A DNA stretch of 64,000 bases from Cellvibrio sp. 79 (GTDB lineage Bacteria > Pseudomonadota > Gammaproteobacteria > Pseudomonadales > Cellvibrionaceae): assembly GCA_003056245.1 (NCBI GenBank), contig MVDH01000006.1, positions 1-64,000 of the forward strand, in the 5' to 3' direction. A program made the translations under genes and the position numbers. This document shows, in pieces, positions 5,660-34,643 of this stretch (the stretch's first letter is position 1; every line of letters begins with the position of its first letter). Under the pieces are notes generated by a model, which had not been told where the DNA came from, searched no databases, and saw only the letters and a program-made list of their open reading frames with translations.

Positions 5660-5836
5660 ATGGACGTACAAGTTGGCGGATTATTTGGTTTTATTTTGTT
5701 GGTTTGTGTTATTTACGCGATTGTAAAAACCGTTCAAAGCAGTGCAAGCACAGGGACAAAAGTTGTATGGACGCTAGTGTTGCTATTGCTTCCCTTCCTT
5801 GGCTTTATCTTGTGGTTAATATTCGGCCCCAAATAA
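5660..5836 (+). CDS. 58-residue PLDc_N-type membrane protein
   Basis: This small gene sits in a different frame from the longer overlapping frame at 5653-5850. It starts at the ATG at 5660, with AGGGGATG as the ribosome binding site about 7 nt upstream. The product has two hydrophobic helices (about 8-22 and 36-55) separated by a short polar turn, and ends in LIFGPK. The pattern of a Trp before the second helix, LLLPFLGF, then W-L-I-F-G-P is characteristic of the phospholipase D nuclease N-terminal (PLDc_N) family. That family consists of small integral membrane proteins of unknown role and has no catalytic HKD motif. Its length fits a complete stand-alone PLDc_N protein. Confidence 0.8.
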   Translation: MDVQVGGLFGFILLVCVIYAIVKTVQSSASTGTKVVWTLVLLLLPFLGFILWLIFGPK

Positions 5837-5899
5837 GCGTTGTGTCATGAAGCAGAATAATTTATTTGCATCCAAAAACATTTAATGGCGAGCAATGGG

Positions 5900-7244
5900 T
5901 CAGTCTTTCCACCGGGCCGCATGGCGCCATCTAATCAACAATTCATCTCGCAAATCAGATGTAAAAGTATCGGTAATATAGATCATTAAATCACGTATAA
6001 ATCGCGCATCGCATGTATACAAAGACTTAATGAAAGATTTAAGCAACATAGGAACAGTAAAAACTGCTTTGGGCTTAATGACTCTATTGCAGGACATTGT
6101 AAGGCGGTTAGCGTATTCTGTTTTTTTTGCCAATTCAGAAAACAACTTTCTTATAAAGTAAGTATTTATTTTCTCTATGTTCGACTGAAACTTTGCATCC
6201 AAATATAAGGGGACTACTCTTGAGTCCCTTTCCTTCCAATATCGTCTATATCCAGCTTCTGTATCAATCAAAATAGCTTTGGATATATTCCGCGCCTCAA
6301 TAAATGCCTCTGTCATTCCCTGGCCACTTACAAAATGTTTTCGGCATCCAGCATCCCCCAGAAGCAAATAGCCTGGGCCGATAGGTTTCCGCAGATAAAA
6401 ATCCGCGTTTTTATGCATCTTACCTTACCAATTTGGATGGCATTTTTTATTAGGGGCCCAACTCGAGAGGATTTTGCCAGATAATTTAGAAAACTGTTTG
6501 GGTTTTCCAAATCCCAACTTGAATTATGAATTTCTTCAGAGGACGCAGACACCAAAGTGCATTTCCATCCGTTTGAAATACGGATCGGTAACCACTGTCA
6601 GACCACTCAACGATCATATCCGTATGTTCGTATTTATTAGAATTCCAGATTTCAGGTGTTTGAATGTATGTCCAGAATGCCGGGATCTTTAAGGTATCAG
6701 TTAAATATGCATTCGAATTTGTCAGGCGTGCAATAATTGAATTGGGACCATCAGCACCAACAACTAATCTTGAACGATGTGATATTGTTTCGTTATTTTT
6801 CTTTGAAACTACACCGACAACACGCCCGGATTCCCGGAGAACATCAACTACTGTGGATTCAGTCAGGAGTAAAACACCAGACCTTTGGGCTTCTGTCTGG
6901 AGCACAGTGTCAACATGTATCCTACGAATACAATAAGGTAAACAATTATCATTGAATTCGCTTTTTACATGCACATCATTTAAATAACTGTGCAGATACT
7001 TCGTGGGAGGGGCAATCCTGCGTAATTCATCACCAATGCCCAATTCATCCAACACTTTCATTCCCGCTCCTTGGATAAAATGTGTTGATAAGGTCATATC
7101 ACGCGGCATTTTCGCAGAGTCCAGAAGAAGCACACTCAATCCGGCTCTTGCAAGATATATCGCCAGTGTCGCACCAGCACAACGAGCACCAACGATAATT
7201 ACATCATATTCCATATTACGCACTACTCCAAAAGGGCTATTCAT
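5900..7244 (-). pseudogene. FAD-dependent oxidoreductase (geranylgeranyl-reductase-like), two frameshifts
   Basis: Three consecutive minus-strand frames together encode one flavoprotein of about 446 residues. The first (7244 to about 6556) has the Rossmann motif VGARCAGATLA at about residue 17 and the second FAD motif VVGADGPNS. The second (about 6555-6420) starts at VSASSEE. The third (6418-5900) carries the GYLLLGDAG motif that binds FAD in this family. Restoring one G after TGG near 6557 and one A in the A5 run near 6411 would rejoin all three, so both lesions look like single-base losses in short homopolymers. This may be genuine decay or assembly error. It is the last gene of the lipid-type operon, 7 nt after the phosphatase gene. 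The family reduces double bonds or hydroxylates hydrophobic substrates; the substrate here is unknown. Confidence 0.8.
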
Positions 7245-7251
7245 TTTCAGA

Positions 7252-7815
7252 CTAATTAGCTATTTCATAAACATCACAAGACCAATGTTTTTTTCCGGGC
7301 TGCTTTGGCCCCGACCAACCTCGCTCAACGAGTGCAGCAGCTATAAATCGATTGAGAAATCCATGCCCCACAAATGAAACAAAACCATACTCACTCGCAA
7401 AAGCAATTAATTTTTCTGCACACAAATTAGCCCTTGCGGTTGCCTCTGCCTTGGACTCACAATTAGCGGAAAACCCCATTAGCCATAAAACCCTGTATAT
7501 AACTGTTAGAATGTCAGCTCTACAATAAAAATTTACTCGTTTTGAATAAGGAACTTCACACTCCCGGAAAAAAGGATCAACAATTGCCCCCCCCGCAAAA
7601 CCGAGCAGCTCAAATGAAGAAATTGATCGCCCTAAATCACTGCACACAAATAGCTGGCAATCTTTTATTTTCTCCAACAAAGAGTCAGCAACTGGAAAAT
7701 TTTTATCAATAACGGCTTTATCATATTTCATCAGCCACTCATTGAAGCTTTTATGATGAATCATCGCTTTCGCTTCAATATCAGGCCTGCCGTGTCGTAT
7801 AAGAGCAATCTTCAT
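7252..7815 (-). CDS. Histidine phosphatase superfamily protein
   Basis: The protein begins MKIALIRHGRP, with the phosphohistidine motif RHG at residues 7-9. It has a second conserved histidine in FVGHGFLNR near the C-terminus and an acidic residue in CEVPY, the usual catalytic set of the branch 2H-phosphatase/phosphoglycerate-mutase fold. I chose the ATG at 7815 (187 residues) because the upstream extension uses a TTG and would overlap the previous gene. This start leaves a 5-nt gap after the methyltransferase-like gene. It sits inside an operon of lipid-type enzymes, so a phospholipid-type or sugar-phosphate substrate is possible, but the sequence does not say which. Confidence 0.8.
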   Translation of the reverse strand: MKIALIRHGRPDIEAKAMIHHKSFNEWLMKYDKAVIDKNFPVADSLLEKIKDCQLFVCSDLGRSISSFELLGFAGGAIVDPFFRECEVPYSKRVNFYCRADILTVIYRVLWLMGFSANCESKAEATARANLCAEKLIAFASEYGFVSFVGHGFLNRFIAAALVERGWSGPKQPGKKHWSCDVYEIAN

Positions 7816-7820
7816 TGGCT

Positions 7821-8507
7821 TTAAATTACAAAAGGAATTAAACAAAACGTTTTTTGCTTGTAGTGCCGATATGTGTCAAATAAACGCGACTCTAGCATTG
7901 CCTCTTCAGCCCTAATCCGTTTGAAAATATATAACAAAACAAAACCGACTAGAAAAAGGGACGCTATTGATTTATAGGACAATGAAAAGCCTACGAACAT
8001 AAGCAAAGTCCCTAAATAGGCCGGGTGCCTTATTTTCGAATAGATCCCGGTAGAAACGACCTGGTGGGAGTCATACAAAACCAATGAATGATTGAAAAAC
8101 CCCCTAAGCTCCCGGATTGCAACCACCCTTACTATTGCCCCTGAAATTAATAGTGCATTTCCAATAAAAAATAACCAAAAGGAATTAAAGGTGAACCAAT
8201 GGAAAAAATAGCTATCCAGTACTGGCGGCAAAACACCAAAACTGACTAGCAAAAATGCACTCGTCAATCCATTAAGTTTGGAATTTGCAAAATCACGAGA
8301 AGCTTCTTTTCGAGTTAATCGAAAAGTAACAATTGCCTCAACAATAAATATCCCAATAAGTACAACAATATTAATTAACAGCTCAATAGTGGAAAGTGTT
8401 GCAGCAGGTTTGAACAAAAAATATTGAAAAACATAAGGTGAAAACAGCGATATAGCTACAGCGAGCAGCAGTAAAGAAAAAGCTTTTCTATCATGATTGA
8501 TACGCAT
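7821..8507 (-). CDS. Isoprenylcysteine carboxyl methyltransferase-like membrane protein
   Basis: A 228-residue polytopic protein with about five hydrophobic segments. The C-terminal half carries the ICMT/phospholipid methyltransferase signature: SKIRHPAYLGTLL, where the membrane-embedded SAM-binding region contains RHPAYLG, followed by an E-rich stretch (RIRAEEAMLESRL) and YRHYKQKT. Bacterial relatives methylate lipids or small hydrophobic molecules, or are of unknown function. The sequence supports a membrane SAM-dependent methyltransferase. The gene lies 10 nt after the preceding one, in the same operon, suggesting it modifies the operon's lipid product. Confidence 0.8.
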   Translation of the reverse strand: MRINHDRKAFSLLLLAVAISLFSPYVFQYFLFKPAATLSTIELLINIVVLIGIFIVEAIVTFRLTRKEASRDFANSKLNGLTSAFLLVSFGVLPPVLDSYFFHWFTFNSFWLFFIGNALLISGAIVRVVAIRELRGFFNHSLVLYDSHQVVSTGIYSKIRHPAYLGTLLMFVGFSLSYKSIASLFLVGFVLLYIFKRIRAEEAMLESRLFDTYRHYKQKTFCLIPFVI

Positions 8508-8517
8508 AGTTCACCTT

Positions 8518-9111
8518 TTATACCAGTAAAAGAATTGCAGATTCTGTTGCTTCAACATACTGTCGTGCAATAGGTAAACCTGTGCGATTTAATTTTATAA
8601 AATCATTCGCTTTCGCATACCAGTTTTCAGATAAATATCCTCGTCCACCATTTAACTTTGTGCACACATCAAAAGATTCGGACAGGTCTGCCAGGCAAGC
8701 CACAACCGAGAGATGAAAGCTAACATAATTGGCATACACCACGTGTGAATTATTCAAAAAGCTCTTTGCTACCGCTATATCACAATGAATTTTTGCCAAT
8801 TTATGCTTTGAAGCCTGCAAATCGAGCAGTGAACCCGAGTGCGCTTTTCGAGAAGATAACCAGGCAATAGTTTCATGCCTCGCCGTTTCAACCAAACCAA
8901 CAATATGAGAAACAAGATCAAATCCAACATTAATGAGCATTTGATCAAATTTTTCTCGTGGAACTACGTATTTGGTGTTGTTTACATCAAGCATTATCTC
9001 ATCACTGAATGGCGTCACCAAGAATGTATTAGCTACGCCAGCTCCATTATAAAATTCATCGTTAATAAGACTCTTTGATAAGTTATCAAGCTGAAGTTCA
9101 ATATTGTTCAT
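8518..9111 (-). CDS. Stand-alone acyl-CoA dehydrogenase C-terminal-like domain
   Basis: This 197-residue helical protein resembles only the C-terminal four-helix domain of acyl-CoA dehydrogenases. It has a helix with LQASKHKLAKIHCDIAVAK, matching the usual region after the active-site loop, then NGGRGYLSENWY in place of the GGxGYxxExP motif, and a final helix. The N-terminal and beta domains that hold most of the FAD site are absent. It overlaps the upstream acyltransferase gene by 14 nt. A full-length acyl-CoA dehydrogenase (12866-13972) is in the same operon, so this could be a partner subunit, or a degenerate protein with a structural role. Confidence 0.65.
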   Translation of the reverse strand: MNNIELQLDNLSKSLINDEFYNGAGVANTFLVTPFSDEIMLDVNNTKYVVPREKFDQMLINVGFDLVSHIVGLVETARHETIAWLSSRKAHSGSLLDLQASKHKLAKIHCDIAVAKSFLNNSHVVYANYVSFHLSVVACLADLSESFDVCTKLNGGRGYLSENWYAKANDFIKLNRTGLPIARQYVEATESAILLLV

Positions 9112-10222
9112 GATGCGCCTCCTTGGAATATACTTGAAAAGAACTTTCCTTCAGGGAAGTAGATGAGCCTATATATCGAATTTGATTTGCCCAGCGAAGG
9201 TTTTCCTCAAGTACCCATCCGATTTTCAACGTTTTGTTTTCGATAGTTGGTATAACTGCATTTATTAAACAGGTTTCAATTCCCTGGTTGCGGTATTCAG
9301 ATTTAACGCCAATAAAAAGTCCTCTGTATTCCTGCGGTGACCTGATCGTTTTAATGAGCTTGGGTATATACCAAACTAGCCCTTTCTTAATTTTTCGCAG
9401 CAAGTACTTATGGATATTGTAATCCGGCATAATTACTATAAATCCTATTGGATTATTTTCATCCAGTGCGAAAAAACAGTATTCAGGCTTCATATACTTC
9501 ATCATGGGCGTAAACTCAGCCTCAAGCTCATCAGAACGATAACGAATCGCTCCCCAATTTTCTGTCCATGCTGAATTATATATTTCTGTGATATGGCCAA
9601 CTTCTTGTTTAGGCATTGAGAGGTCGATAGACCTAAAACCGATCGTTTTTTTTGTCTTTGCCTGTGCAAAACGTGAAGCGGTTTCAAGGCGAGCTACTAC
9701 TGTGCTATTAATAAGCAAATCAAACTGTAATAAATTTTTACAGAACACATATCCAGATCGCTCTAATAATGCGGGATAGTATTCTTTGCTTAATGGCATT
9801 CCAAAAGTTGGCAATAGGTGTACGTTTGTATTGGCCCCTTTAGGGTCACTCATTCTTGGGGAAAAATACATTAAATGATCATTACACCCGCGCTTTTTTA
9901 ATTCACTATCTGCCTTTGATAAAATTTCCGCACTAGCCTGCTCATCGTCGATACATTCAAAATAACCAATGTAGCCGGTCTGACTGGATCTATGTTTAAA
10001 AAGAATTACCGCAGCAATCCATGTGTTTTTACTATCAAGCAGAAAAAATAGCTCGCAATAGTTTTCATTCGAATAGAATAAAAGCCCATTATAAAAAGAT
10101 TCTATCTCTGTTATATCGAATCCGGTATAGAAATCACAAGATCTGTACAGTCTATTTTTTAAGTTAAAAAATTCCTTGATGTTATCGAAGTTTATTCCGC
10201 TTTCTATTCTCATACTGATCAC
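9098..10222 (-). CDS. GNAT-type N-acyltransferase (possible ceramide-synthase-like)
   Basis: A 374-residue protein whose C-terminal half is a GNAT fold: YNSAWTENWG near residue 218, an IGFIVIMPDYN strand, GVKSEYRNQGIE (the acyl-CoA/ACP pyrophosphate loop, normally RxxGI), and a late strand with WVLEENLRW. The N-terminal half looks like a second, degenerate GNAT-like domain. The YNxAWxxNWG family includes many proteins next to amino-lipid genes. By analogy with the Caulobacter ceramide synthase, itself a GNAT-type enzyme, it could N-acylate the amino group made by the oxoamine synthase. That analogy is inference. It abuts the kinase-like gene and overlaps the next gene by 14 nt. Confidence 0.72.
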   Translation of the reverse strand: MISMRIESGINFDNIKEFFNLKNRLYRSCDFYTGFDITEIESFYNGLLFYSNENYCELFFLLDSKNTWIAAVILFKHRSSQTGYIGYFECIDDEQASAEILSKADSELKKRGCNDHLMYFSPRMSDPKGANTNVHLLPTFGMPLSKEYYPALLERSGYVFCKNLLQFDLLINSTVVARLETASRFAQAKTKKTIGFRSIDLSMPKQEVGHITEIYNSAWTENWGAIRYRSDELEAEFTPMMKYMKPEYCFFALDENNPIGFIVIMPDYNIHKYLLRKIKKGLVWYIPKLIKTIRSPQEYRGLFIGVKSEYRNQGIETCLINAVIPTIENKTLKIGWVLEENLRWANQIRYIGSSTSLKESSFQVYSKEAHHEQY

Positions 10223-10972
10223 TTAAAAAATTGAATTAATTAGAGAAATTGTCGCAATTCCAGTTACTAGCAAAAACGGGGTATCCCACGTGTGAGGTGA
10301 TTTGGCTTCTGTAAGCGTCATGAGTATTGGCAGAATCAACAAAAGAGCAATGAATTCTTTAGCTGTAAAATATGAATTAAACCAAATGACCGCCAGAATT
10401 GATGCGGCATAAACGCACAGACTCCCTTCAATAGATCTAACGAAGGTTTTCTTACTAAACAAGGCACGTACACGATATTGATGTTTACCAAATTTTATCC
10501 CAACTGGCTCAGCTAATCCGTCACCAAATGCAATCACACTCAAAGGAATAAAGAGTGCAGGCTGAATCAGTTGCGTCGGAAGCATAATTACAGCAACAAT
10601 CATAATCACGTAAGCAGTAGCAGCCTGAGTTACAAGCCAAACAAGTGTATAAGGTCTATCTTCAGGCCGATCAATTGAATAAAACGCCTGTTCTAATATC
10701 GAGAATTTCCGGCGCAGTTTGGCATTGAAAAGTGTCAACAGACATAACGTTAGTGAAGCATTCAATAGAATACTATTCAGGGAAATACTCACATCAGCAG
10801 CAATGCCACGCAGTGAGTCTATCGCTGCAGGAACAAAGAGCATGCTGAAGTGAAGTATTTTACGTGAGTAACCAACATGAAAATTCCATGCTGATACCGC
10901 TCGCCCGAGAAAAAAAGCCAAGCCAACAAAAATAGCTATCTTAACTCCACTAAATAACGCTTCGATTAACAA
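10223..10972 (-). CDS. Phytol/dolichol-kinase-like membrane protein
   Basis: A 249-residue integral membrane protein with about six or seven hydrophobic helices. The family signature is visible: FGDGLAEPVGIKFGK near residue 152, then a basic loop ending in SKKTFVRSIEGS, and TEAKSPHTWDTPF near the C-terminus. These are the GDG, KKxxxGS and ExxSPxxxDN-type motifs of CTP-dependent phytol/polyprenol kinases and related cytidylyl-transfer enzymes. It overlaps the acyl-AMP ligase gene by 7 nt. In this operon a plausible role is phosphorylating a lipid hydroxyl, for example on the amino-lipid head. The substrate is inferred only from context. Confidence 0.75.
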   Translation of the reverse strand: MLIEALFSGVKIAIFVGLAFFLGRAVSAWNFHVGYSRKILHFSMLFVPAAIDSLRGIAADVSISLNSILLNASLTLCLLTLFNAKLRRKFSILEQAFYSIDRPEDRPYTLVWLVTQAATAYVIMIVAVIMLPTQLIQPALFIPLSVIAFGDGLAEPVGIKFGKHQYRVRALFSKKTFVRSIEGSLCVYAASILAVIWFNSYFTAKEFIALLLILPILMTLTEAKSPHTWDTPFLLVTGIATISLINSIF

Positions 10973-12615
10973 ACCTGAAAATACCTATCTGGATTCAAAT
11001 TGTAATCAGAAGCGATTTTTTGCCTGGCAATCTTACCACTTGATGTTTTAGCTATTGGCAACTTTGCAACAATCATTTTGGCAATTTGCATTTCATGATT
11101 TATTAAAACTGCTTTTTTTAACGCAATGACACTCTCTATAACTTCATGGCTTAAACTGTCAGTGTGTAACAGTTGCCTTTGAGCAGTCTTGCTTTCCAAA
11201 ACAGCGACAACCTCTTCTTTGCCTTTACTAAAATCAGTCAATTGAAGAATTGCTATTGATTCAAATTCAGGGTATTCATATCTTAATTTCGATTCAATGA
11301 CTTCCGGGTAGAAACTGCGCCCCATCGTTTTTATTAAACTCTTTTTCCTACCCACCACGTACAGTCGACCTTGCCATAAAAAGCCAACATCACCTGTATA
11401 CAAAGGGTCTTCCGGACTAATATTTTTCCTGCCATCAAGCTCAAGCAATTCACGTGTTGTTGAACCTCCCTGAATAAAAATGTCACCAATGGTTCCCTCT
11501 TCACACAGGGTTCCCTCATGCCAAATGGAAACATTGGTATTATTTAGCGGTCTTCCAGCACAAGATATTTTTGCGCCCGCTGCATCAATCTCAATAATGT
11601 CCCCGGAAAATAATTTTTTTTCGTTTATTGTTACGAATGTTCTATCTTCATCAAATGCAGGAAGGCTCACTGCGACAACATTTTCCGCTAAACCATAGGA
11701 TGGCTTTAGCACCCCTTCACGAAAGCCAATTGATTTATATTTTTCTTCAAAGGCATCCAACGAATCGACATAGGCCATATCAGAGCCCACAAGAAGATAC
11801 TGTAAAGAATTAAGATTAACACCTGCTTGTAAAGCCTTGTCACTTAAACTCGACAGCAGTTTAATCGCAAAATTCGGCACGCCAGCATGTGTCCCAGCAT
11901 ATTGATCAATTTCCTTTAACCAATTAATTGGGTTTCTTACAAATGAATACGGTGTTAATAGATTAATTTGCGCACCGGAGAAGATGGCAAGCATCAGCGA
12001 CATCAATCCCATGTCGTGATACAAAGGAAGCCACGAAACAATTACACTGGATGAATTCATATTCATTCTTTCAACTATATCAATTAGATTATGTGAAAGC
12101 TGATCAGAATTAATGGTAATACCTTTGGGATGACCTGTGGTTCCGGAAGACAGCTGCGTCATGAATCGATAGGCAGCTTGACGATCATCTTGAAAAAAAT
12201 TATTAATTGGCGCCCCGGAAAGCAGCTCTGTAATATCGAGGAAATCAATGTTTTCAACACTTTTAGCTTTATACTGCGCGGCTCCAGCAACAAGCGGTCT
12301 AATACCATCAGGCAACAATCGTAAGCTTGTATTTATTTTTTCGGGGATATCACCAACAGCGGGAACCTGCACAATCGGTACGCGCATAACCAACGCAGCA
12401 ATAACAGTACAGACCACCTCTACAGAAGTATCCATTATTAATAGAATTTCATCATATTCTTTCTTTAGCACATCGAGCTTATTAGCAATACGTGCAGACA
12501 GATCAATAACCTCCGAATATGAATATTCAGCGTTGTTATTTGCAAGCCTTAAAAATCGCTTATCATCCAGCAAGGCAAACGATTTTAAAGAAGTTAGCAT
12601 ATCCTTATTAAACAT
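10966..12615 (-). CDS. Fatty acyl-AMP ligase / acyl-ACP synthetase
   Basis: This 549-residue ANL-superfamily enzyme activates a carboxylic acid as the acyl-adenylate. It shows the P-loop LSSGTTGHPKG at residues 155-165, the SWLPLYHDMGLMS motif typical of fatty acyl-AMP ligases, a VPNF acyl-pocket motif, SYGLAENVV, the TGD motif, GRKKSLIKTMGR with YPEVIE, and the C-terminal SSGKIARQK lysine. The YHDMGL and GRKK...YPxxIE combination favours long-chain fatty acids over amino acids. Its start overlaps the carrier protein gene by 8 nt, arguing that it loads that carrier. In Caulobacter ceramide synthesis an acyl-ACP synthetase has the same position in the pathway. Confidence 0.88.
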   Translation of the reverse strand: MFNKDMLTSLKSFALLDDKRFLRLANNNAEYSYSEVIDLSARIANKLDVLKKEYDEILLIMDTSVEVVCTVIAALVMRVPIVQVPAVGDIPEKINTSLRLLPDGIRPLVAGAAQYKAKSVENIDFLDITELLSGAPINNFFQDDRQAAYRFMTQLSSGTTGHPKGITINSDQLSHNLIDIVERMNMNSSSVIVSWLPLYHDMGLMSLMLAIFSGAQINLLTPYSFVRNPINWLKEIDQYAGTHAGVPNFAIKLLSSLSDKALQAGVNLNSLQYLLVGSDMAYVDSLDAFEEKYKSIGFREGVLKPSYGLAENVVAVSLPAFDEDRTFVTINEKKLFSGDIIEIDAAGAKISCAGRPLNNTNVSIWHEGTLCEEGTIGDIFIQGGSTTRELLELDGRKNISPEDPLYTGDVGFLWQGRLYVVGRKKSLIKTMGRSFYPEVIESKLRYEYPEFESIAILQLTDFSKGKEEVVAVLESKTAQRQLLHTDSLSHEVIESVIALKKAVLINHEMQIAKMIVAKLPIAKTSSGKIARQKIASDYNLNPDRYFQVC

Positions 12616-12856
12616 TTATATTCTCGATTGCAACAGAAAACATTTTAGCCAGCTGATTTACACTGGTAGTTTCGTCTATGTCTGTAAACTGATTTAAATC
12701 CAGGCTTATTTTAAATTGATTTTCTAATCGCGTAACGAATTCGATAAACATAATGGAATTGAATCCATATGCATACACAGAGTCATCGGGATTAATTCGC
12801 CCAACACCGATATGTTCTTCCAAAAGACTAACGATAGCTTCTATTTTTGTGCTCAT
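12608..12856 (-). CDS. Acyl carrier protein, atypical GFNS site
   Basis: An 82-residue acidic helical protein with the four-helix carrier layout. The phosphopantetheine serine is Ser34 in GFNSI, where most carriers have DSL; the Asp before the Ser is replaced by Asn. The start of helix 2 (IMFIEFVTRLE) fits a carrier recognition helix. It sits between the acyl-CoA dehydrogenase (9 nt) and the acyl-AMP ligase (8-nt overlap), so it is a dedicated carrier for this operon rather than the fatty-acid-synthesis ACP. It probably carries the acyl chain delivered to the oxoamine synthase or oxidised by the dehydrogenase. Confidence 0.88.
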   Translation of the reverse strand: MSTKIEAIVSLLEEHIGVGRINPDDSVYAYGFNSIMFIEFVTRLENQFKISLDLNQFTDIDETTSVNQLAKMFSVAIENINV

Positions 12857-12865
12857 AGTTGTTCC

Positions 12866-13972
12866 CTACATTGGTTTTAATGTTTTAGTTAAATCAAAAA
12901 TAAGATCCAGCATTACATCAGACGTTCCAGCAAAAATTTGAAAAACCTTGGAGTCCTTGTGAAATGAATCCAGAACTCTAATAACATCTGACTTTAGCGG
13001 AAGCGCCTGCGCAATTTCCCATACTTTTCCAATAATATCTTCAGCCCCCTTGGCCAATTTATATTTTGAAATCGATGAAACCAGGGCTTTCTCCTGATCT
13101 TCCATTGCTATATTTCTGTACGAGTTCAAATAAGAGACTCGCCCCAACAGAAGCTCTAACCATTCATTGGAAAGTGCCACCCTACTTTGCGAAACATTGG
13201 TTAGCACTTCGGAGTCAAGTGACTTTTTCAATAAAAGTATCGCCGCTTCAGCTACGATTAACGAAGCTACTCCAATAATTGATCGTTCTTTGGAAATAGC
13301 ATTAAAGATATCAATTGCACCAGAATTATGGGCAATACATAGTTCATGAGGCACAATCAAATTATCAAATCGAATACTACTAATAGGTGAATCAATCAAG
13401 CCATGTTTGGCAAGCTCAGAACGTGTAATTCCAGGCAACGATCCTGGAATGGCAAACAAGGAACAATTTGTCCATTTGTTTTTATTTTGCGCAGACTTTG
13501 CCAAAACCAAAAGGACATCGGCAAAGTGTCCGTTAGTAATGTAACGTTTCTCGCCATCTATTCTATATCCACTGGAAATTTTCTCACAATTGGTATTTAG
13601 CACATCAAACACAAAGCTCCCACCTGCCGGTTCAGTGACAGCAAAAGCAGCGACAAGCGTTCCATCCAGCATCCCATCAGAAACATTTTTTGAAGTTTGA
13701 TTGGCATGCTTGAGAAGCACCGGCAAAATGGTATTTATCATCACCATAATGCTTGCGCTCACCCCTGGTGATAATCGCGTAACCAATGCATGCATCAATG
13801 CATACAATTTTTCAGGATCAGCGCTACCGTTATTAGAATATATATCCCTGTAACAACCGGCCTCGCCCAGTGCTCGATGGACAGTCCGAACTTTATTTTC
13901 GACCCCATTTTTTTCATTGAAAATATTAGTCGCTTTAATTATTGCGCTATCCAGTTTTTTTGAATATTCCAT
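12866..13972 (-). CDS. Acyl-CoA (or acyl-ACP) dehydrogenase
   Basis: A 368-residue FAD enzyme with the standard domain order. The middle beta domain has AAFAVTEPAGGSFVFD near residue 108 (normally AMTEPxxGSD) and the substrate-side IDGEKRYITNG. The C-terminal helical domain ends in FQIFAGTSDVMLDLI, close to the usual QIxGGTxEI motif. It introduces a 2,3 double bond in acyl thioesters, passing electrons to ETF. Adjacent carrier and ligase genes suggest the substrate is an acyl-ACP, giving an unsaturated chain in the final lipid. It is shorter than usual by about 10-15 residues at the N-terminus. Confidence 0.85.
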   Translation of the reverse strand: MEYSKKLDSAIIKATNIFNEKNGVENKVRTVHRALGEAGCYRDIYSNNGSADPEKLYALMHALVTRLSPGVSASIMVMINTILPVLLKHANQTSKNVSDGMLDGTLVAAFAVTEPAGGSFVFDVLNTNCEKISSGYRIDGEKRYITNGHFADVLLVLAKSAQNKNKWTNCSLFAIPGSLPGITRSELAKHGLIDSPISSIRFDNLIVPHELCIAHNSGAIDIFNAISKERSIIGVASLIVAEAAILLLKKSLDSEVLTNVSQSRVALSNEWLELLLGRVSYLNSYRNIAMEDQEKALVSSISKYKLAKGAEDIIGKVWEIAQALPLKSDVIRVLDSFHKDSKVFQIFAGTSDVMLDLIFDLTKTLKPM

Positions 13973-13985
13973 AAATTACCAAGCC

Positions 13986-14918
13986 CTATAAATAAGAATC
14001 GGCGGTGATTTTCACCTTTCCAGTTAATTCACTTTGGGAGGGAGAGCTTAATGACGGGGTTGTTGGCCATTCATTAAAGCAAATATCACTTATCCTTTGA
14101 GATAACATTGGTAGATGAATCAAGTCGAAAATTTTCTTTAGGATCACTGCTGGAATTTTGTATATAGTAAATTTCAAACTAAATCTTGAATTCACAGCTC
14201 TTCTGATTTCAGAAACGAAACTATTCCAGCTAACATAAGACCCAAGGTTGATTATTGATACAGGTTCACAATCAAAGCAGGCATTAGTAATATCCTTGAC
14301 TAGATCATCGACAAAGATCATCGGTAAAGGCCTATCCAGTGATTTGGACAAGTAGATGTAAATTCCCCTCTGCGACAGCCGGAATAGAGGTTTTAAATTA
14401 TCATCACCAGGCCCAAAGACTGCTGGAATCCTAAGAATTGATAAACCAGTCTCGATCTGTTCATTAAAACGAGAAATTAATAATTTTTCACACGCCCGTT
14501 TTGAAATTCCATATGGACAAGCTATAGGAACTTTTAAGCCATTAAGTAACGGCTCAACAGCTTTAGCGGAACTTGCAAAAATAAATCGTGAGCCTTTACT
14601 AGCGTATTGAACAAATACTTTTGACAGCGCAGCTGTTGATTCAATGTTGAACCCTGGAGCTTCATTAAACCGACGAAGACCTACTCCAGCAAGATGAATC
14701 AAAAGACACTTATGTTTTTTTGAAAAGACTTCACCTATTGAGTCAACATCCAGGAGATCAACCTTTATGTATTTCACATTGGTAGCTTCATATAAAACTG
14801 AAGGCTTCGCAGAACTGCGCCCCAAACAAATAACAGGAAGCCCAAGCGATGCAAGCGCCTTTAAAAGATGCTGCCCAATAAATCCACTTGCGCCTGTTAA
14901 ATAGATAACTTCAAACAT
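13986..14918 (-). CDS. NAD(P)-dependent epimerase/reductase, CerR-like
   Basis: A 310-residue extended short-chain dehydrogenase. The nucleotide motif TGASGFIG is at residues 8-15, and the catalytic Tyr136 and Lys140 are in YGISK, preceded by the usual serine-rich FASSAK strand. It follows the oxoamine synthase gene with a 1-nt gap, so the two are almost certainly cotranslated. In the bacterial ceramide pathway a reductase of this family reduces the 3-keto group of the oxo-amino-lipid. The same activity here would convert the synthase product to an amino alcohol. The family also contains sugar epimerases, which the neighbourhood makes less likely. Confidence 0.82.
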   Translation of the reverse strand: MFEVIYLTGASGFIGQHLLKALASLGLPVICLGRSSAKPSVLYEATNVKYIKVDLLDVDSIGEVFSKKHKCLLIHLAGVGLRRFNEAPGFNIESTAALSKVFVQYASKGSRFIFASSAKAVEPLLNGLKVPIACPYGISKRACEKLLISRFNEQIETGLSILRIPAVFGPGDDNLKPLFRLSQRGIYIYLSKSLDRPLPMIFVDDLVKDITNACFDCEPVSIINLGSYVSWNSFVSEIRRAVNSRFSLKFTIYKIPAVILKKIFDLIHLPMLSQRISDICFNEWPTTPSLSSPSQSELTGKVKITADSYL

Positions 14919-14919
14919 A

Positions 14920-16074
14920 TTAGCGACTCATGAGACTCGCAATTTTATCTATTCCGGACAAATCAGATTGAGCAGTGATACAAAACCTGATGCGATGCCC
15001 ATTTCGGGGAACTGATGGATAAACAAACGAAGACACCAATACTCCAGACCGTATCAGCTCCGCTGTTTTGGCAGGAAGCTCCGCTTCCGCGACATCAAGG
15101 CAAAAAGGAATACCTAATGTTTGTGAATTTACAACTTTTCCAGGAATGAAACTTAATTTGGCTAAAGCTCCCCGCTGATTTTCCCATGCTTTCAATCTGC
15201 GATTATTTCCATCTACCTGTCCCAGTAGCTTAAATGCTTTTAGTGCGGCAGCCACCAAAGGGGGAGCCATGCCACGGCTACTGGTATATGCACCACAAAG
15301 ATGACGAAGATAGGCGACTTCAACTTGTGATGCTGCCAACATCCCTCCATGACTCCCCAGTGCTTTATTGAAGGTTGTTGTAATGTAATCAACCTGCCCC
15401 GTTACACCAAAAAAATCACAGACACCAAGATTATTTGGCCCGAAGACTCCAAACGAGTGACTTTCATCAACCAAAATTTTTGCGCCATATTTTTTACAAA
15501 TTGATAAAACCAAAGGAATATCCGGATAATTTCCGTTCGCGCTATTAAAACCTTCAATGCACACCAATTTATTTTTGGCATTGCTATTAGCGAGAATTAA
15601 CTCCAGCTTTGCATAATCATTGTGCGGAAATATTTTTGTTTCGGCATAGGAGGCTCTTGATGCAATGAATAAAGAATAATGATTCATCTCATCATGAATT
15701 ATCAGATCGCCTTTTGAGAAAAGAGAAGTTAGAACAGAAAGATTAGCGTGAGTGCATGTTGGAAAAAGCGATATCGACTTTGAAAAAGCCTGACTTAATT
15801 CAAACTCCAGCTCTTCATGATAAATAGTGTAACCACTAAATATCTGAGCTGCATTAGTTGTTATTCCAAAATCTTTGGCACTGGCAATGAAAGCATCAAT
15901 TACTTCAGGGTGAGATGAAAAATTAAGAAAATCACAGGAGGTATAATCGACAACAGACCCGAACTTTCGAAGTTGTTTGCTGTTTGCTGTTTGCGCCTCA
16001 ACGACATTAAAGTATGGAGATCCACCAAAACTTTCTATTTCATTTAATTTTTTCTGAAACTCTAATACACTCAT
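14920..16074 (-). CDS. PLP-dependent alpha-oxoamine synthase (serine palmitoyltransferase-like)
   Basis: A 384-residue fold-type I enzyme that condenses an amino acid with an acyl thioester, losing CO2. Visible active-site elements are His132 in NHYS (stacks on PLP), Asp203 and His206 in VDESHSFG, and the PLP lysine Lys237 in TTFNKALGSHGG. The late RNGHRIRFCITA contains the Arg that binds the amino-acid carboxylate. Start ATG at 16074 with AAGGATG upstream. No biotin or threonine-degradation genes are nearby, so BioF or Kbl roles are unlikely. With a reductase, carrier, acyl ligase and GNAT in the same operon, a serine palmitoyltransferase-like role is the best guess; CqsA-like amino-ketone synthesis is the alternative. 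Confidence 0.85.
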   Translation of the reverse strand: MSVLEFQKKLNEIESFGGSPYFNVVEAQTANSKQLRKFGSVVDYTSCDFLNFSSHPEVIDAFIASAKDFGITTNAAQIFSGYTIYHEELEFELSQAFSKSISLFPTCTHANLSVLTSLFSKGDLIIHDEMNHYSLFIASRASYAETKIFPHNDYAKLELILANSNAKNKLVCIEGFNSANGNYPDIPLVLSICKKYGAKILVDESHSFGVFGPNNLGVCDFFGVTGQVDYITTTFNKALGSHGGMLAASQVEVAYLRHLCGAYTSSRGMAPPLVAAALKAFKLLGQVDGNNRRLKAWENQRGALAKLSFIPGKVVNSQTLGIPFCLDVAEAELPAKTAELIRSGVLVSSFVYPSVPRNGHRIRFCITAQSDLSGIDKIASLMSR

Positions 16075-16331
16075 ACATCCACATCCTTTTTTTAGATAAA
16101 ACCACCCAATCCACGATCAAATAAATCGCGAACAAAGACCAAGAGCATTGGCTACAAAAAAATACTATAGGGAATTAATAGTTAAAAATGGCTTCATAAT
16201 TATTCCATTTAGACACTTGTACTCCATCACACTCCTTTTGTCGCTAATTCAGAGATGTGTTTGCGAGGTAAAACTAATTAACTTGTTGAGTATAATACTA
16301 TCAACATTGAAATATTTTTGAAATAATTTAT
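16075..16331. other. AT-rich spacer upstream of the lipid operon
   Basis: 257 nt without a credible gene. It is strongly AT-rich and separates the RND pump stop from the oxoamine synthase start. TATACT- and TATAGT-like hexamers occur on the minus strand, but none has a convincing -35 partner. I saw no clear terminator for the pump, so the operon could have its own promoter here or be read through from the pump. Confidence 0.5.
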
Positions 16332-19300
16332 CTAAATCGTTTTGATACTTGTCACAGCTTTAAAATTTTCTTCATTTTCTTTTTCTTTATCTATGCAAAC
16401 AGTTTTTACAGAGTAATTTTTTTTAGAATAGGCATATAAAACAGGAACAAAAAAGAGACAAAGGATTGTAGATAGAATGAGCCCCCCAATGACGGCAAAA
16501 GCCATCGGCTTGCGAAACGCAGAATCATCAATAAATCCAAAACAAATAGGCAGCATTCCAGCAATCATCGCACAGCTTGTCATAATAATTGGCTTGGCGC
16601 GTTTTACGCATGCCTCAATCGCTGCCGACGCTGGATCCAACCCAAGACGACAATATTTTTCTGCCTGCTCAATAATTAGTATTGAATTCTTGGTAGCGAT
16701 TCCTGCCAACATGATAATGCCGATCATTGACGGTAAACAAAGCATACTGTCGCTTATCACCAAAGCAATCAGCGCCCCGCCAAGCGAAAGAGGAATTGCA
16801 CATAAAATAATTATCGGCTGGATAAAATCTTTAAACAAAATTGCCAACAAGCAATACAGGCCAAGCACACCCATTATCAGCGCCATTTTAAATCCATGGC
16901 CTAATTCCGCCATGGTCTCCTCATCCCCTCCTGTGACTAGATTTACATTTGAGGGCAATGAAATAATCGAGGGCAACTGTAATGCTTTTTCCAATGCATC
17001 ACCCAGGGGCAGGTCGATCAGGTCGGCGGAAATCGATATGTAGCGCTTTCGATCATAACGATCAATAGACACCGGACCACTAATTTGTTCTACTTCTGCA
17101 ATTGTGCCCAGTGGAACAAGACCATGAGGCGATATTATTGGAAAATTTTTTAAGTCATTGATAGTCCCTCGCGATGATTTAAAAAATTGCAACTGAATTG
17201 GAACTTGTCGATCCTCGAAATAAAGCCTTGGTGCGAGCTCCTCATATTGGCCAATTGTTAAAAGTCTTATTGTTTCAGCAATGTGATCAGTAGAAATTCC
17301 AACGTTTGCGATCAAATTGAAATTCGGTCTAATTGCAATCTCCGGCTTATCCAAAAGCCCCATTGAACTAACATTTGCTAACCCTGCTACCATCCGCAAT
17401 TCTTTTTGTATTTTAGTTGCTGCCTCTTTGATGCTTGCGCTACTTTCGCTGGTGAGGATAAGTGTTAGTTTTCCGCCCGGACTGGTTTGAGCGAGACCAA
17501 ATCGCGCTCCTGCAATCTCCTTTAATGCAATACTAATAAGCTTTTCTGCTTCCATTTGAGCAATCGTCGAACCATTTTTTTCGAGAAGTACAATAATGTT
17601 TCCCTTCCTTACCTCTCCAGCAAATTTCGCGCCCCGGGTTCCTGATTGAATCCCTCCTATCGTAGAAAAAATCGTATCGGCAAATCCCAATGACATTATT
17701 TTTTTACGTACAGCGGCTTCAATTGTTTCAGAATCGCTAATAGTGCTCCCCGGCTGAAGCTCGAAGTTTATAGATACGTAACCTTTATCCGGCTCAGGAA
17801 TGAAACCTTTGGGAATGTAAGGCACCATGATCAGTGAAAATAAAAATATCGTGAAGAATGCCACTACCAGCAGCCTTTTCCGCGACAAACATGCTGTCAG
17901 CCATTTGCTGTATACAATTTGGAGCTTTCCATACTTTTCATGCGCGTGTGACGGTTGATACTTTATAAAAGTTGCAGCCATCAACGGTATAATCATTCGC
18001 GCCACGAGAAGCGATGCAAATACGGCTACTGAAGCAGTCCAACCGAATTCACGAAAAAATAATCCCGATATACCCGGCATAAGTGCCGTAGGAAGAAACA
18101 CAACAATTAACGCAAGACTGGTGGCGATAACAGCGAGAGCTATATCATTTACCGCAACCTCCACTGCAAATTTTATTGAATGTTTCTTCGTAATATGCTT
18201 ATCAATATTTTCAATTTCTACGATTGCATCATCAATTAGAATTCCAATCACCATTGCCAGTGCCAGCAAAGTGATGCTATTGAGCGAAAAACCAAACCAA
18301 TGCATAACAGCAAATGTTGGCAAGATTGACAGGGGAATTGCTACCGCGGAGATTAATGTTGACCTTATGTCACGAAGAAAAATAAAGACCACAATCAACG
18401 AGAGAATAATTCCCTCATAGATCATGCGCATTGATCCTTCATACTGCTGGCGCGTGTAATCAACATTACTATGCACCCGCTGAATAGTAAATGCAGGGTG
18501 CGCAGCTACAAAATTCTGTAGCGTTTTCTCAACTTCATCCGCAAGGATAGATTCATCATATCCCTTAGCCCTGTAAACTTTGAAAGCAACAACTTTTTCG
18601 CCCTGCAACAACACCAATTGCGATCGATCAGCAGTGACATCTTCAATATCGGCAATTTGCCCCAACACAACCAGATTTCCATCAGGTAGTGAAACAGGTA
18701 AATCACGAAGCTGATTTGCTTGCTGTAGGGAAGCCGTTGCCCGGATGGATTGCTCTGATTGCCCGGATATACGTCCGGCATTGGTATCCTGGATGTTTCT
18801 TTTGATTGAATTGCTAATTTCAGCAGGAGAAAGATTTAAAGACGCAAGCACGACAGGATCAAATGTTATTTTAATTTCACGATTTACACCGCCAACTCGC
18901 TCAAACCTGCCTACACCTGACACTCCGGAAATCAATTTGCTGATTGTATTATCCACAAACCAGGATAATGACTCCTCATCCATATCACTATGTAAAATGG
19001 AATAAGTGACTATCGGTTGGTTGCTCGCCAATATGGCTTTTACCACCGGCGCCTGGATAGTTAGCGGAAGCTCTGGTCGAATGCGCTCTATTGCGTCTTT
19101 TGTTTCAATTAATGCATCAGTCAACTGTTTTTGAATTTCAAATTCACAATCAATCTTGACGATACCATCACTAATCGATGTCCGCATGTGCTTTAAATAT
19201 TGGATTGCAGCGAGCGCATTTTCCGCTTTTCTCGCGACTTGCGCTTCCAGTTGGGATGGGGTCGCCCCCGGCTGCGAAATTGTGATGGTAACTGTTGGTA

Positions 19301-19424
19301 AATCGATATCAGGAAGGTTCTGCAATGGCATCTGGTTAAATCCCCAGACACCCGCGATCGATAACAGGAAAAAAAACATCGCCGATGGAATCGGATTGGA
19401 AAGCGACCATGTAGCAAGCTTCAT
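16332..19424 (-). CDS. RND efflux pump permease (HAE-1 type)
   Basis: A 1,030-residue inner-membrane pump with 12 predicted helices and two large periplasmic loops. The N-terminus after helix 1 (MPLQNLPDIDLPTVTI) and the following QVARKAENAL are standard RND features. The helix-4 proton-relay acids are in IGILIDDAIVEIENI, and the second half repeats the layout with GIATKNSILIIEQ. It lies 12 nt after the adaptor gene. No outer-membrane factor gene is nearby, so it would use a TolC-type channel encoded elsewhere. Sharing strand and AT-rich composition with the lipid operon suggests it moves that product, though a drug-efflux role cannot be excluded. Confidence 0.92.
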   Translation of the reverse strand: MKLATWSLSNPIPSAMFFFLLSIAGVWGFNQMPLQNLPDIDLPTVTITISQPGATPSQLEAQVARKAENALAAIQYLKHMRTSISDGIVKIDCEFEIQKQLTDALIETKDAIERIRPELPLTIQAPVVKAILASNQPIVTYSILHSDMDEESLSWFVDNTISKLISGVSGVGRFERVGGVNREIKITFDPVVLASLNLSPAEISNSIKRNIQDTNAGRISGQSEQSIRATASLQQANQLRDLPVSLPDGNLVVLGQIADIEDVTADRSQLVLLQGEKVVAFKVYRAKGYDESILADEVEKTLQNFVAAHPAFTIQRVHSNVDYTRQQYEGSMRMIYEGIILSLIVVFIFLRDIRSTLISAVAIPLSILPTFAVMHWFGFSLNSITLLALAMVIGILIDDAIVEIENIDKHITKKHSIKFAVEVAVNDIALAVIATSLALIVVFLPTALMPGISGLFFREFGWTASVAVFASLLVARMIIPLMAATFIKYQPSHAHEKYGKLQIVYSKWLTACLSRKRLLVVAFFTIFLFSLIMVPYIPKGFIPEPDKGYVSINFELQPGSTISDSETIEAAVRKKIMSLGFADTIFSTIGGIQSGTRGAKFAGEVRKGNIIVLLEKNGSTIAQMEAEKLISIALKEIAGARFGLAQTSPGGKLTLILTSESSASIKEAATKIQKELRMVAGLANVSSMGLLDKPEIAIRPNFNLIANVGISTDHIAETIRLLTIGQYEELAPRLYFEDRQVPIQLQFFKSSRGTINDLKNFPIISPHGLVPLGTIAEVEQISGPVSIDRYDRKRYISISADLIDLPLGDALEKALQLPSIISLPSNVNLVTGGDEETMAELGHGFKMALIMGVLGLYCLLAILFKDFIQPIIILCAIPLSLGGALIALVISDSMLCLPSMIGIIMLAGIATKNSILIIEQAEKYCRLGLDPASAAIEACVKRAKPIIMTSCAMIAGMLPICFGFIDDSAFRKPMAFAVIGGLILSTILCLFFVPVLYAYSKKNYSVKTVCIDKEKENEENFKAVTSIKTI

Positions 19425-19436
19425 TCTATATCCTTA

Positions 19437-20513
19437 TTAGTTACGAATAACGTTGACTACATCACCTTCATTTAATAAGCCAGCACCATTCATTACAAGC
19501 AAATCAGTTGTTACAATTGTTGAAATAATCTCCACATCCGTGCCATTTCGCTGCCCGACTGAAACAGGTGCCATATGAATTTTTGACGTTGCGTTTTCCT
19601 GTATTATTTTTGCGACAAACGTTTTTCCATCGCGCAATATCACGCTCTTTTCTGGCACTGAAATTAATGTGCGGTCATTCAAAACAACTTGTCCACCGAG
19701 AAACATACCCGCTTTTAGAACGTCGCCTTGCGGCAGAGCAACATTGATGGATGCAAGGCGGGTCGACAGGTTCACTGCTGGATCAATTCTGGACACTACT
19801 CCATTAATTTTAGATCCCTCAGGGCCATCTACTAACACTGCCTGCCCGGGTTTGATTTCAGATATCACGGAGGATTGAAATTGCCCTCTCCACTCCAGCT
19901 GCCCTTTTCTGATAAGCCTGAACAACTCAGAACCAACCGTTACCACCTGCCCTAACGATGCCAATCGAGCACTGACAATCCCATCATCAGGGGCTTGAAT
20001 TGTTGTCAGGCGAATTTCATTTTCCAAAAATTCTCGATTCGCCGCAATTTCTTGCTGCTGGGCCAGGGAGATTTCATAGTGAGCAACAATTTGATCGATC
20101 TCCTGATCGCTTATACTTTCCTTTTCTTTAAGCTTTAACGCCCTGTCACGATTTGATTTGGCCTGACTCAGGTTAACGTCGGCCTGGCGTAGCTGCGCAT
20201 CAGCAGAACGTATTCTGGCTTGAATTGATGCATTCGATAATTTTGCAACTATTTGCCCTTTTTTTACGCGATCACCCACATCAACATTCAATGAGACAAT
20301 TGATTGCCCTGCTATTTGGCTGGCCAATATAGCTTCTTGCCAGGGTGCAACTTCACCTGTAGCAGAAATGGTTTTTTTCCAGGTAACAACTTTGGGGGAG
20401 ACGCTGGTAACAGCAATAGTCGCTGGCGCTGACGGGGGAGATTGAGAACTTTTTACGGAGTAGGACAAAATACCTAAAAGAAAAATGAACCCATAACTAA
20501 GAGGTTTGACCAT
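19437..20513 (-). CDS. RND efflux membrane fusion protein (adaptor)
   Basis: A 358-residue periplasmic adaptor. A hydrophobic N-terminal segment (about 5-20) serves as signal or anchor and there is no lipobox. The first half-lipoyl piece (SQIAGQSIVSLNVDVGDRVKKGQIVAKL) is near residue 65, then a coiled-coil hairpin rich in Ala/Gln/Asp (about 95-160). The second half-lipoyl piece (IQAPDDGIVSARLASLGQVV) is near 170, followed by beta-barrel and membrane-proximal domains. It is the first gene of the pump pair and bridges the pump to an outer-membrane channel. No regulator gene is adjacent. Confidence 0.9.
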   Translation of the reverse strand: MVKPLSYGFIFLLGILSYSVKSSQSPPSAPATIAVTSVSPKVVTWKKTISATGEVAPWQEAILASQIAGQSIVSLNVDVGDRVKKGQIVAKLSNASIQARIRSADAQLRQADVNLSQAKSNRDRALKLKEKESISDQEIDQIVAHYEISLAQQQEIAANREFLENEIRLTTIQAPDDGIVSARLASLGQVVTVGSELFRLIRKGQLEWRGQFQSSVISEIKPGQAVLVDGPEGSKINGVVSRIDPAVNLSTRLASINVALPQGDVLKAGMFLGGQVVLNDRTLISVPEKSVILRDGKTFVAKIIQENATSKIHMAPVSVGQRNGTDVEIISTIVTTDLLVMNGAGLLNEGDVVNVIRN

Positions 20514-20832
20514 GTGTCTATCCGTGAGAAAGCATTAACCTTATGCGTAAATCCCAATATGAACTGGAACGAGTTCAACTGTGTCTGTAACGAAATTGTC
20601 ATTTAATTTTTTCTTTCGGTCAATAGTCCATTTACAGGGATTTTCACATGAGTATTTAAACTGTCGACTGTGTACTAATTTGCTTCCAATATTACCTGTG
20701 ATGAAGCCATCCAAATTTAAAAAACATCAATCGCCAGATATAAAGGTTCGCAGGCTATCCCCACCTTAATACAGATTCATTTGCCGGATTAATTTTACGA
20801 CAAATATTCAGTCATCAATAAAAGTATATTGA
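20514..20832. other. Spacer upstream of the RND adaptor
   Basis: 319 nt with only a weak 62-codon plus-strand frame that has no ribosome site or recognisable motif. A short dyad, GAACT-N6-AGTTC, at 20561-20576 lies about 50 nt upstream of the adaptor start and could be an operator for a regulator not encoded here. The rest shows nothing I can support. Confidence 0.4.
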
Positions 20833-21360
20833 TTATGGAAAAGCATGCGTCAGCAGGCGTTTCACTTCTTGAGATAACTGCTGCTCCGCAAGTGCACCTT
20901 CTGTTTTAGCTTGTATAAAAGTGATGCTGGAAGTGCTATCGCGCGAGGATTTTAGTTTTAAAACAATTCCACCATTTTTAATTAACTGCAATTCAATTAA
21001 TGGAGCTACCTCATCATCAGGCATCGCCTGAAATCCGTATTTATCAATAATTACCGATTGCAAGCCCTCAATTTTTCCATGCTCATGCAGTACATTTTCG
21101 ACCACAGCAGTCATTGAAAAACCAGGATTATTAGTCGCAATTGCCGATTCAATATCTTTTGCAATGCCCTCATCAATAGCGATACCAATTGCAACATCTG
21201 CACCACCTAACACTGAATCCATCATAATGCCGGCTGCACTCCCCCGCCCGGTGAAATATAAAGATTGGCGTTCTCCGTAGGTGACTTGAACTGGTGGAGT
21301 GCGGGTTTGGATGCATGAGACAATTAAACAACAAGTGATGAGTAATAAAATAATTCGCAT
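20833..21360 (-). CDS. Hypothetical lipoprotein
   Basis: A 175-residue protein with a lipoprotein signal: a short hydrophobic stretch ending in LIVSC, with the lipid-bearing Cys at residue 16. The following residues (Ile, Gln) do not include the +2 Asp that favours inner-membrane retention, so outer-membrane sorting is likely. A glycine-rich segment near residue 40-60 (GRGSAAGIMMDSVLGGADVAIG) may be a short membrane-associated helix pair. The rest is mixed alpha/beta. I do not recognise the family. It is AT-rich like its neighbours and stands alone between the pump genes and the toxin locus. Confidence 0.7.
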   Translation of the reverse strand: MRIILLLITCCLIVSCIQTRTPPVQVTYGERQSLYFTGRGSAAGIMMDSVLGGADVAIGIAIDEGIAKDIESAIATNNPGFSMTAVVENVLHEHGKIEGLQSVIIDKYGFQAMPDDEVAPLIELQLIKNGGIVLKLKSSRDSTSSITFIQAKTEGALAEQQLSQEVKRLLTHAFP

Positions 21361-22816: not shown

Positions 22817-22907
22817 CATTGGCCTCCTTGTTTGTTTAAGTATTGCCAACATCCAGTTAGTCGCTGGAAGCCGGGTGTCAACTAGAGCCAAACAAGTAGC
22901 TCCGGGC

Positions 22908-34517: not shown

Positions 34518-34583
34518 GACAGCTCCATTCGGTGTGATACAACAGCCCGGATTTTTATGATTTAAAACTTCCAACCTACAAAC

Positions 34584-34617: not shown

Positions 34618-34643
34618 GGTTAACTACTTAAACTATTAAAAAA

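Follow-up and report, generated by a model that had tools for sequence, protein, structure and literature searches.

We propose that a block of eleven co-oriented genes from Cellvibrio sp. 79 is an acquired specialised-lipid operon whose sequences point to an N-acylated sphingoid-like amino lipid as its product, a reading to which we give a probability of roughly 55%. The block occupies positions 5900 to 16074, on the minus strand, of the window (the whole stretch of 64,000 nucleotides that was analysed), and it is probably a distant, imported version of ceramide-like lipid machinery.

All the open reading frames listed by the first-pass annotation were found again on the minus strand, as tightly packed as it had described: consecutive genes overlap or are separated by at most 13 nt up to the last one, which encodes a FAD enzyme. 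The block begins with an alpha-oxoamine synthase (AOS, 384 aa, 14920..16074), followed after 1 nt by a reductase of the extended-SDR or epimerase type (310 aa, 13986..14918), after 13 nt by an ACAD-type dehydrogenase (368 aa, 12866..13972) and after 9 nt by an acyl carrier protein (ACP, 82 aa, 12608..12856) with Ser34 as candidate phosphopantetheine site. The gene of a fatty acyl-AMP ligase (FAAL, 549 aa, 10966..12615) shares 8 nt with the ACP gene and 7 nt with that of a polytopic membrane protein (249 aa, TTG start, 10223..10972), which a GNAT of the bCerS/YghO family (374 aa, GTG start, 9098..10222) follows with a gap of 0 nt. A second ACAD-like protein, made of the C-terminal domain only (197 aa, 8518..9111), overlaps the GNAT gene by 14 nt; an ICMT/PEMT-type membrane methyltransferase (228 aa, 7821..8507) lies 10 nt further, a histidine-phosphatase-like protein (197 aa, 7252..7845) overlaps the latter by 25 nt, and a gap of 7 nt leads to the FAD-dependent oxidoreductase, of the geranylgeranyl-reductase or FAD_binding_3 kind (5900..7244). 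Pfam recognised Aminotran_1_2 in the AOS (E 5.4e-27), Epimerase in the reductase (9.1e-20), Acyl-CoA_dh_M in the first ACAD (2.5e-15), PP-binding in the ACP (6.4e-12), AMP-binding in the FAAL (1.3e-32), Acetyltransf_1 in the GNAT (2.8e-6), Acyl-CoA_dh_1 in the second ACAD (3.4e-6), ICMT and PEMT in the methyltransferase (5.9e-15 and 1.1e-12) and FAD_binding_3 in the FAD enzyme (1e-17). An RND efflux permease (1030 aa, 16332..19424) lies 257 nt upstream of the AOS gene in the same orientation, with an RND periplasmic adaptor (358 aa, 19437..20513) beyond it; both may belong to the operon unit.

The GNAT is a member of the bCerS-type family. A profile made from a nine-row bCerS alignment matched no other protein of the genome at E values up to 10 and gave the GNAT an E of 1.5e-39; profile comparison with bCerS gave 99.7% over 356 columns, columns 8-381 being aligned. 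In a tree with canonical bCerS proteins the GNAT sits on an end branch of 4.09 and its placement is without resolution. Its homologues are scarce (3 of 96 relatives, 14 of 293 genomes of the order and 2 of 144 of the family, its own genome counted each time), and an AOS was within reach in 11 of the 14 wider loci carrying one that were examined.

The AOS is a member of the alpha-oxoamine synthases and keeps H132, D203, H206, K237 and R363 at the conserved places of that family; we take these residues to be catalytic, and the PLP site is intact, as had been claimed. It stays below the cut-off in each of the following models: 172 bits against 500, 192 against 640 and 136 against 670 for the Spt models NF047599, NF047600 and NF047603, 221 against 426 for BioF, which is its best model, and 197 against 460 for Kbl. 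In our tree its sister is an AOS from Streptomyces clavuligerus (99/96), which is also the nearest AOS found (33.6% identity), and the pair is joined by an AOS encoded behind a type I PKS in an SgaAB layout (98/93, or 93/82 in a 26-row tree). Topologies that placed the AOS by itself with BioF (p-AU 0.0035), with Kbl (p-AU 0.016) or with proteobacterial Spt (seven Spt-beta rows, p-AU 0.0043) were rejected; moved together with its two sister rows it gave p-AU 0.0735 with Spt-beta, which is not rejected, and 0.082 with BioF. CqsA and LqsA were judged from HMM and PDB scores, the trees having no CqsA row, and the AOS scored 99.6 bits on the CqsA model NF005526, whose cut-off is 428; a firm placement with BioF, Kbl or CqsA, which the first-pass annotation had named as evidence against its own proposal, therefore did not emerge. 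The predicted structure (mean pLDDT 62.3) gave no separation among SPT, Kbl, BioF and ALAS. The motif reads DESHSFG in the window AOS, and DEAHS is present in 7 of 7 Spt-beta rows, in the S. clavuligerus row and in the SgaB-like row. A scan of genome contigs with the AOS returned eight relatives, all at or below 33% identity, and at E 1e-60 the one hit among 274 same-class genomes was the window itself. The AOS thus stands, with the S. clavuligerus enzyme and the AOS of the SgaAB-like PKS layout, in a lineage of its own.

Like the GNAT, the reductase and the FAAL match canonical ceramide clusters; identities are 22-34%. Against the clusters of E. coli or Pseudomonas veronii, E values went down to 5.8e-36 for the FAAL, 6.8e-25 for the AOS, 2.0e-18 for the GNAT and 1.5e-16 for the reductase. 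In its tree the reductase stands outside the starred nine-row CerR clade, on a long branch of unsettled position. The ligase is closest to FAALs rather than to CoA ligases, FAAL-type chains leading its PDB relatives (18 sequences at E up to 1e-20, including FadD32, FadD23 and FadD28); its NCBIfam scores lie below cut-off (PRK07768, 212 bits against 572; PRK09192, 202 against 600). The ACP had no BLAST relative at E 1e-5 among the fetched loci, its PP-binding domain alone being recognised. The five ceramide-like roles proposed by the first-pass annotation are thus supported in part: by the family of the GNAT and the matches of the reductase and the FAAL, but not by the cut-offs of the AOS or the BLAST search with the ACP.

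One could assume that the block is simply a divergent canonical ceramide operon, in which counterparts of Spt, AcpR, AasR, CerR and bCerS would yield dihydroceramide while the ACADs trim or degrade chains or act on the N-acyl chain. All five roles are present by homology, and the AOS, ACP, acyl-ACP-ligase-type enzyme, epimerase-type reductase and bCerS-family GNAT stand together here as in the pathway of Caulobacter and E. coli BL21 type (PMC9386255, PMC11087976). The block differs from that pathway in an AOS placed outside the canonical clade, a reductase that appears to lie outside its own, and the added ACADs, methyltransferase and membrane protein. According to PMC9386255, Spt, AcpR and AasR of Caulobacter together form 3-oxo-sphinganine. 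We nevertheless consider this explanation unlikely. The AOS alone does not group with Spt-beta. Moreover, canonical clusters carry ceramide phosphate genes (an LptF/G pair, a ceramide kinase and a nucleotidyltransferase) that have no counterpart between 5900 and 20513, and the order AOS, ACAD, ACP, ligase recurs in S. clavuligerus. The statement that sphingolipids are rare in gammaproteobacteria also calls for caution: the core ceramide roles occur together on records of a Pseudomonas sp. BYT-5 plasmid, E. coli H240 and P. veronii, these loci and PMC9386255 indicate complete clusters in Escherichia coli and Pseudomonas, and the Spt cut-off was passed in 6 of 143 same-class genomes.

The comparison with S. 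clavuligerus bears on the role of the dehydrogenases. Its pCLA1 block carries an AOS, an ACAD, an ACP and an adenylating enzyme in the order of the window, minus the reductase; it differs by an amino-acid-type adenylation domain, a complete RedW/PigA-like ACAD and PKS and NRPS neighbours. Since this order recurs, the window dehydrogenase probably acts, by analogy, on a carrier-bound acyl chain before condensation. In the first ACAD a candidate catalytic glutamate, Glu229, stands where LCAD and IVD have theirs, and Ala348 is at the MCAD place; neither of the usual stretches, R-x-x-FG and GGxG(Y/F), is present. The second keeps R88 and GGRGY (155-159). It is possible from these sequences that the two are complementary subunits of one enzyme. 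The first ACAD weakly matches dehydrogenases of carrier-protein-bound substrates (PigA 78, RedW 62 and MbtN 43 bits). In the mycobactin acyl-tail set, MbtM, MbtL, MbtN and MbtK are a ligase, an ACP, an acyl-ACP dehydrogenase and a GNAT N-acyltransferase. The window repeats these functions, with weak matches to MbtM (163 bits) and MbtN that lie far below the cut-offs of 621 and 700, but its GNAT is of the bCerS family and the AOS is extra. The neighbourhoods of three further FAAL, ACAD and plasmid matches contained no AOS.

Such neighbours raise another hypothesis, namely a non-sphingolipid natural product: the AOS would take a different amino acid, or an acyl-ACP of an unusual kind, and give an amino ketone that is then cyclised or N-acylated, as happens in other product clusters with an AOS. 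The nearest AOS lies amid PKS, condensation and adenylation genes and a RedW/PigA-type ACAD, bioF is the best if distant model for the window AOS, and the adjoining RND pump and the island location would suit a secondary metabolite. This appears improbable to us, given a GNAT of the bCerS family, a FAAL-type ligase and the lack of any PKS or NRPS ORF within 5900-20513. A parallel that favours our own reading is SgaAB of Pseudomonas fluorescens MYb115, where, according to PMC12134224, SgaB was shown to be a serine-specific SPT and a PKS-derived sphingolipid is a specialised metabolite. The window AOS shares its lineage with the AOS of a plasmid locus that resembles SgaAB in its PKS-AOS layout, but the block has no PKS and its chain would come from the FAAL and ACP.

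The remaining genes are less well defined. The membrane protein had been called lipid-kinase-like, and a CTP-dependent lipid kinase is possible; the name comes from motifs seen by eye, and no Pfam or NCBIfam model matched. A PF01148 search of the genome missed it and retrieved only the other CTP_transf_1 gene. Among 349 genomes its one match was itself, and no plasmid matched. A predicted model was dropped (mean pLDDT 45.9), and the Pseudomonas gene 3' of ceramide kinase, considered as a counterpart, proved to be a sequence of another kind. The phosphatase assignment comes down to a sub-threshold His_Phos_1 match (17.8 bits, threshold 21.7). The coding sense of the FAD gene runs through three frames from 7244 to 5900, its two listed ORFs (6486-7244 and 5900-6418) being 67 nt apart; it is therefore not intact, but either a pseudogene or the result of an assembly error.

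The broken gene, together with the lack of the GNAT in 20 of 20 other same-genus genomes, could suggest a decaying or silent operon without present function. This seems very unlikely: the other ten genes are open, catalytic residues are kept where checked, and the two small indels may also be assembly errors. The block lies inside a GC-poor island starting at 5833, and the segment 5833..34639 is absent from one same-genus genome. In a second relative the shared stretch starts no earlier than about 21002, which leaves 5833-21001 as the smaller candidate insertion. No convincing insertion repeats were seen at the block ends, genome searches with the AOS, GNAT and membrane protein found no close relatives of the cassette, and no paper on such an operon was among the matches listed from open-licence PMC literature.

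For the acquired lipid operon that we favour, the sequence itself shows which genes are present, their order and strand, the conserved catalytic residues and the relationship of the AOS, the family of the GNAT and the island. From these we infer the substrates, the sequence of steps, where the double bond lies, the tailoring, the export and the product as follows. The FAAL would activate a fatty acid and load the dedicated ACP, in the manner of AasR, and the ACAD, perhaps with the second ACAD as a subunit, would oxidise the ACP-bound chain to its 2,3-enoyl form. The AOS would then join the enoyl-ACP to an amino acid, most probably serine, in a decarboxylating condensation. In either order, the reductase would act on the 3-keto group, in a CerR-like role, and the GNAT would acylate the nitrogen. 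Head-group modification may fall to the membrane protein, methyltransferase and phosphatase, and export of the product to the RND pump. Since the thioester carbon ends up as C-3 of the long-chain base, a double bond at position 2,3 of the acyl chain would come to lie at position 4,5, as in sphingosine; by analogy, the scheme predicts bases of the 3-keto-sphingosine type that are unsaturated at 4,5 and become N-acylated at a later step. That a dehydrogenase pair provides 2-enoyl-ACP which the AOS and serine turn into 3-keto-sphingosine, giving true sphingosine or ceramide without a desaturase, is a version we put forward tentatively.

The Spt model scores the window AOS below the BioF of the same genome, so searches keyed to canonical Spt models overlook such clusters. 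If our interpretation is true, the block would represent a third kind of sphingolipid-type system in bacteria, in addition to the Caulobacter-like type and the PKS-derived type, and one that is borne on a specialised-metabolite island. It would also explain, in a directly testable way, how the double bond of sphingosine could arise without a desaturase.

The eleven minus-strand genes at 5900-16074 follow the order alpha-oxoamine synthase (AOS), reductase, acyl-CoA-dehydrogenase-type enzyme (ACAD), ACP, fatty acyl-AMP ligase (FAAL), membrane protein, GNAT, second ACAD, methyltransferase-type protein (ICMT), phosphatase-like protein and FAD enzyme. From the AOS up to where the FAD gene begins, the intergenic distances range from -25 to +13 nt, so that these genes are likely carried on a single transcript. 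The coding sense of the FAD gene is distributed across three frames. An RND permease and an adaptor are encoded upstream of the operon, on the same strand and at a distance of 257 nt. The first-pass annotation had proposed an amino-lipid operon and got the kind of system right, but the synthase does not qualify as a canonical Spt. It had also counted the dehydrogenase step, the most distinctive part of the operon, only among the tailoring reactions.

The best alignment of the first ACAD is with the MCAD chain 1egc, which carries a glutamate at the LCAD position and a glycine at the usual one, and which is an MCAD double mutant. In the first ACAD itself, the LCAD position is occupied by Glu229 and that of the usual base by Ala348, and neither an R-x-x-FG nor a GGxG stretch is present. 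The second ACAD, a small protein, aligns with LCAD across precisely these stretches (E 2.9e-4) and has kept them both. A published study describes the glutamate at this position as the catalytic base of LCAD (PMC11153573). Since the second ACAD retains the stretches missing from the first, which has Glu229, it is plausible from the sequences that the two proteins form a complementary heteromer.

A useful comparison concerns Streptomyces clavuligerus (locus L034), where the sister AOS precedes a RedW/PigA-like ACAD, with an ACP and then an adenylating ligase next in line. This is the order of the window minus the reductase. Unlike the FAAL of the window, the S. clavuligerus ligase is of the amino-acid type, so the acid differs there. 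The recurrence of the gene order suggests, by analogy, that the ACAD would act ahead of the AOS and ready a carrier-bound acyl group for it.

The neighbouring genes bear comparison with ceramide clusters. The reductase matches genes found at the CerR position with 28-34% identity, and in our tree it sits on a long branch outside the starred nine-row CerR clade. The FAAL matches FAALs from ceramide clusters (26-29% identity) and its PDB relatives are headed by FAAL-type chains. The ACP shows a PP-binding domain with a candidate Ser34, and a BLAST search of the fetched loci at E 1e-5 returned no relative of it. According to one report on Caulobacter, the loading by the ligase AasR is restricted to the special carrier AcpR, and Spt prefers acyl-AcpR (PMC9386255). 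We propose by analogy that the FAAL and ACP could play a role like that of AasR and AcpR.

The pathway could then run as follows. The FAAL and ACP would provide an acyl-ACP, from which the ACAD would produce a 2-enoyl-ACP; the AOS would attach an amino acid to it, carbon dioxide being released, and the reductase and GNAT would finish an N-acyl amino alcohol. The product is predicted, purely by carbon counting, to bear a 4,5 double bond. Another study gives acylation before reduction as the likely order of these steps in Caulobacter (PMC11087976). The layout nearest to the AOS lineage of the window is that of SgaB from Pseudomonas fluorescens MYb115, the comparison being one of layout; SgaB is described as serine-specific in the corresponding paper (PMC12134224).

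Genome G000 also encodes a second AOS (contig C10, within 276001-295000), with an epimerase-type reductase behind it. The pair adjoins an 8.1 kb ORF and an acyltransferase-like ORF, and these surroundings look like a PKS cluster, going by ORF starts and homology.

Searched with a nine-row alignment of homologous GNATs, the genome of the window gave the window GNAT as its single match (E 1.5e-39). This protein lies on a long branch of a 17-row tree in which its placement is not settled. Using tblastn, GNAT homologues were found on 33 plasmid records, with 20-26% identity among the matches listed. They include AOS-GNAT-reductase trios in Rubrobacter and Streptomyces, and in Pseudomonas veronii a match annotated as yghO adjoins an AOS, an ACP and a reductase. 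We then considered 14 wider GNAT loci, that is 13 scanned by tblastn and the reference locus L036 from Pseudomonas sp. BYT-5. An AOS is present in 11 of them, nine being recognized by tblastn and two (L036 and L038) by annotation, for L038 that of the same plasmid. In the stretches looked at, L088 and L089 have ceramide-type neighbours but no AOS, and L037 has neither.

Among the 20 other same-genus genomes, the GNAT was found in none. The flanks were compared in five of these. DNA homology ends at 5832 in both G014 and G010, and restarts at 34640 in the former and near 21002 in the latter. In G013 and G007 the epimerase is followed by malate dehydrogenase and the block is absent, and G004 keeps the left side alone within the stretch fetched. 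The GC content is 38.8% for the operon, 42.8% for the pump genes and 45.0-46.2% for the flanks. Orthologues of the RND genes occur in four of the 20 other genomes (E 1e-200), with at most 46% identity.

The island that holds the operon also contains a 3712-aa ORF with SpvB, FG-GAP and RHS repeats (23436-34574, minus strand); a homologue with 37% identity occupies this site in the relative G010, which there lacks the lipid operon. A match to sRNA-Xcc1 scoring above the Rfam gathering threshold lies at 22861-22951 (minus strand), and this DNA stretch is present in G010 with 73% identity. A 175-aa ORF at 20833-21360 (minus strand) has no match in NCBIfam or Pfam; G010 retains it at 55% identity, flanked by the epimerase side and by the RHS-type gene.

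Complete ceramide clusters were also seen elsewhere. One lies in an unannotated stretch of an Escherichia coli record, NZ_OL790696.1 (L007), which carries a plasmid label despite its length of 4.8 Mb. Another, accompanied by genes for later steps, is found in L036 on the Pseudomonas sp. BYT-5 plasmid pBYT5-2. As this plasmid is typed as conjugative, such a pathway can travel.
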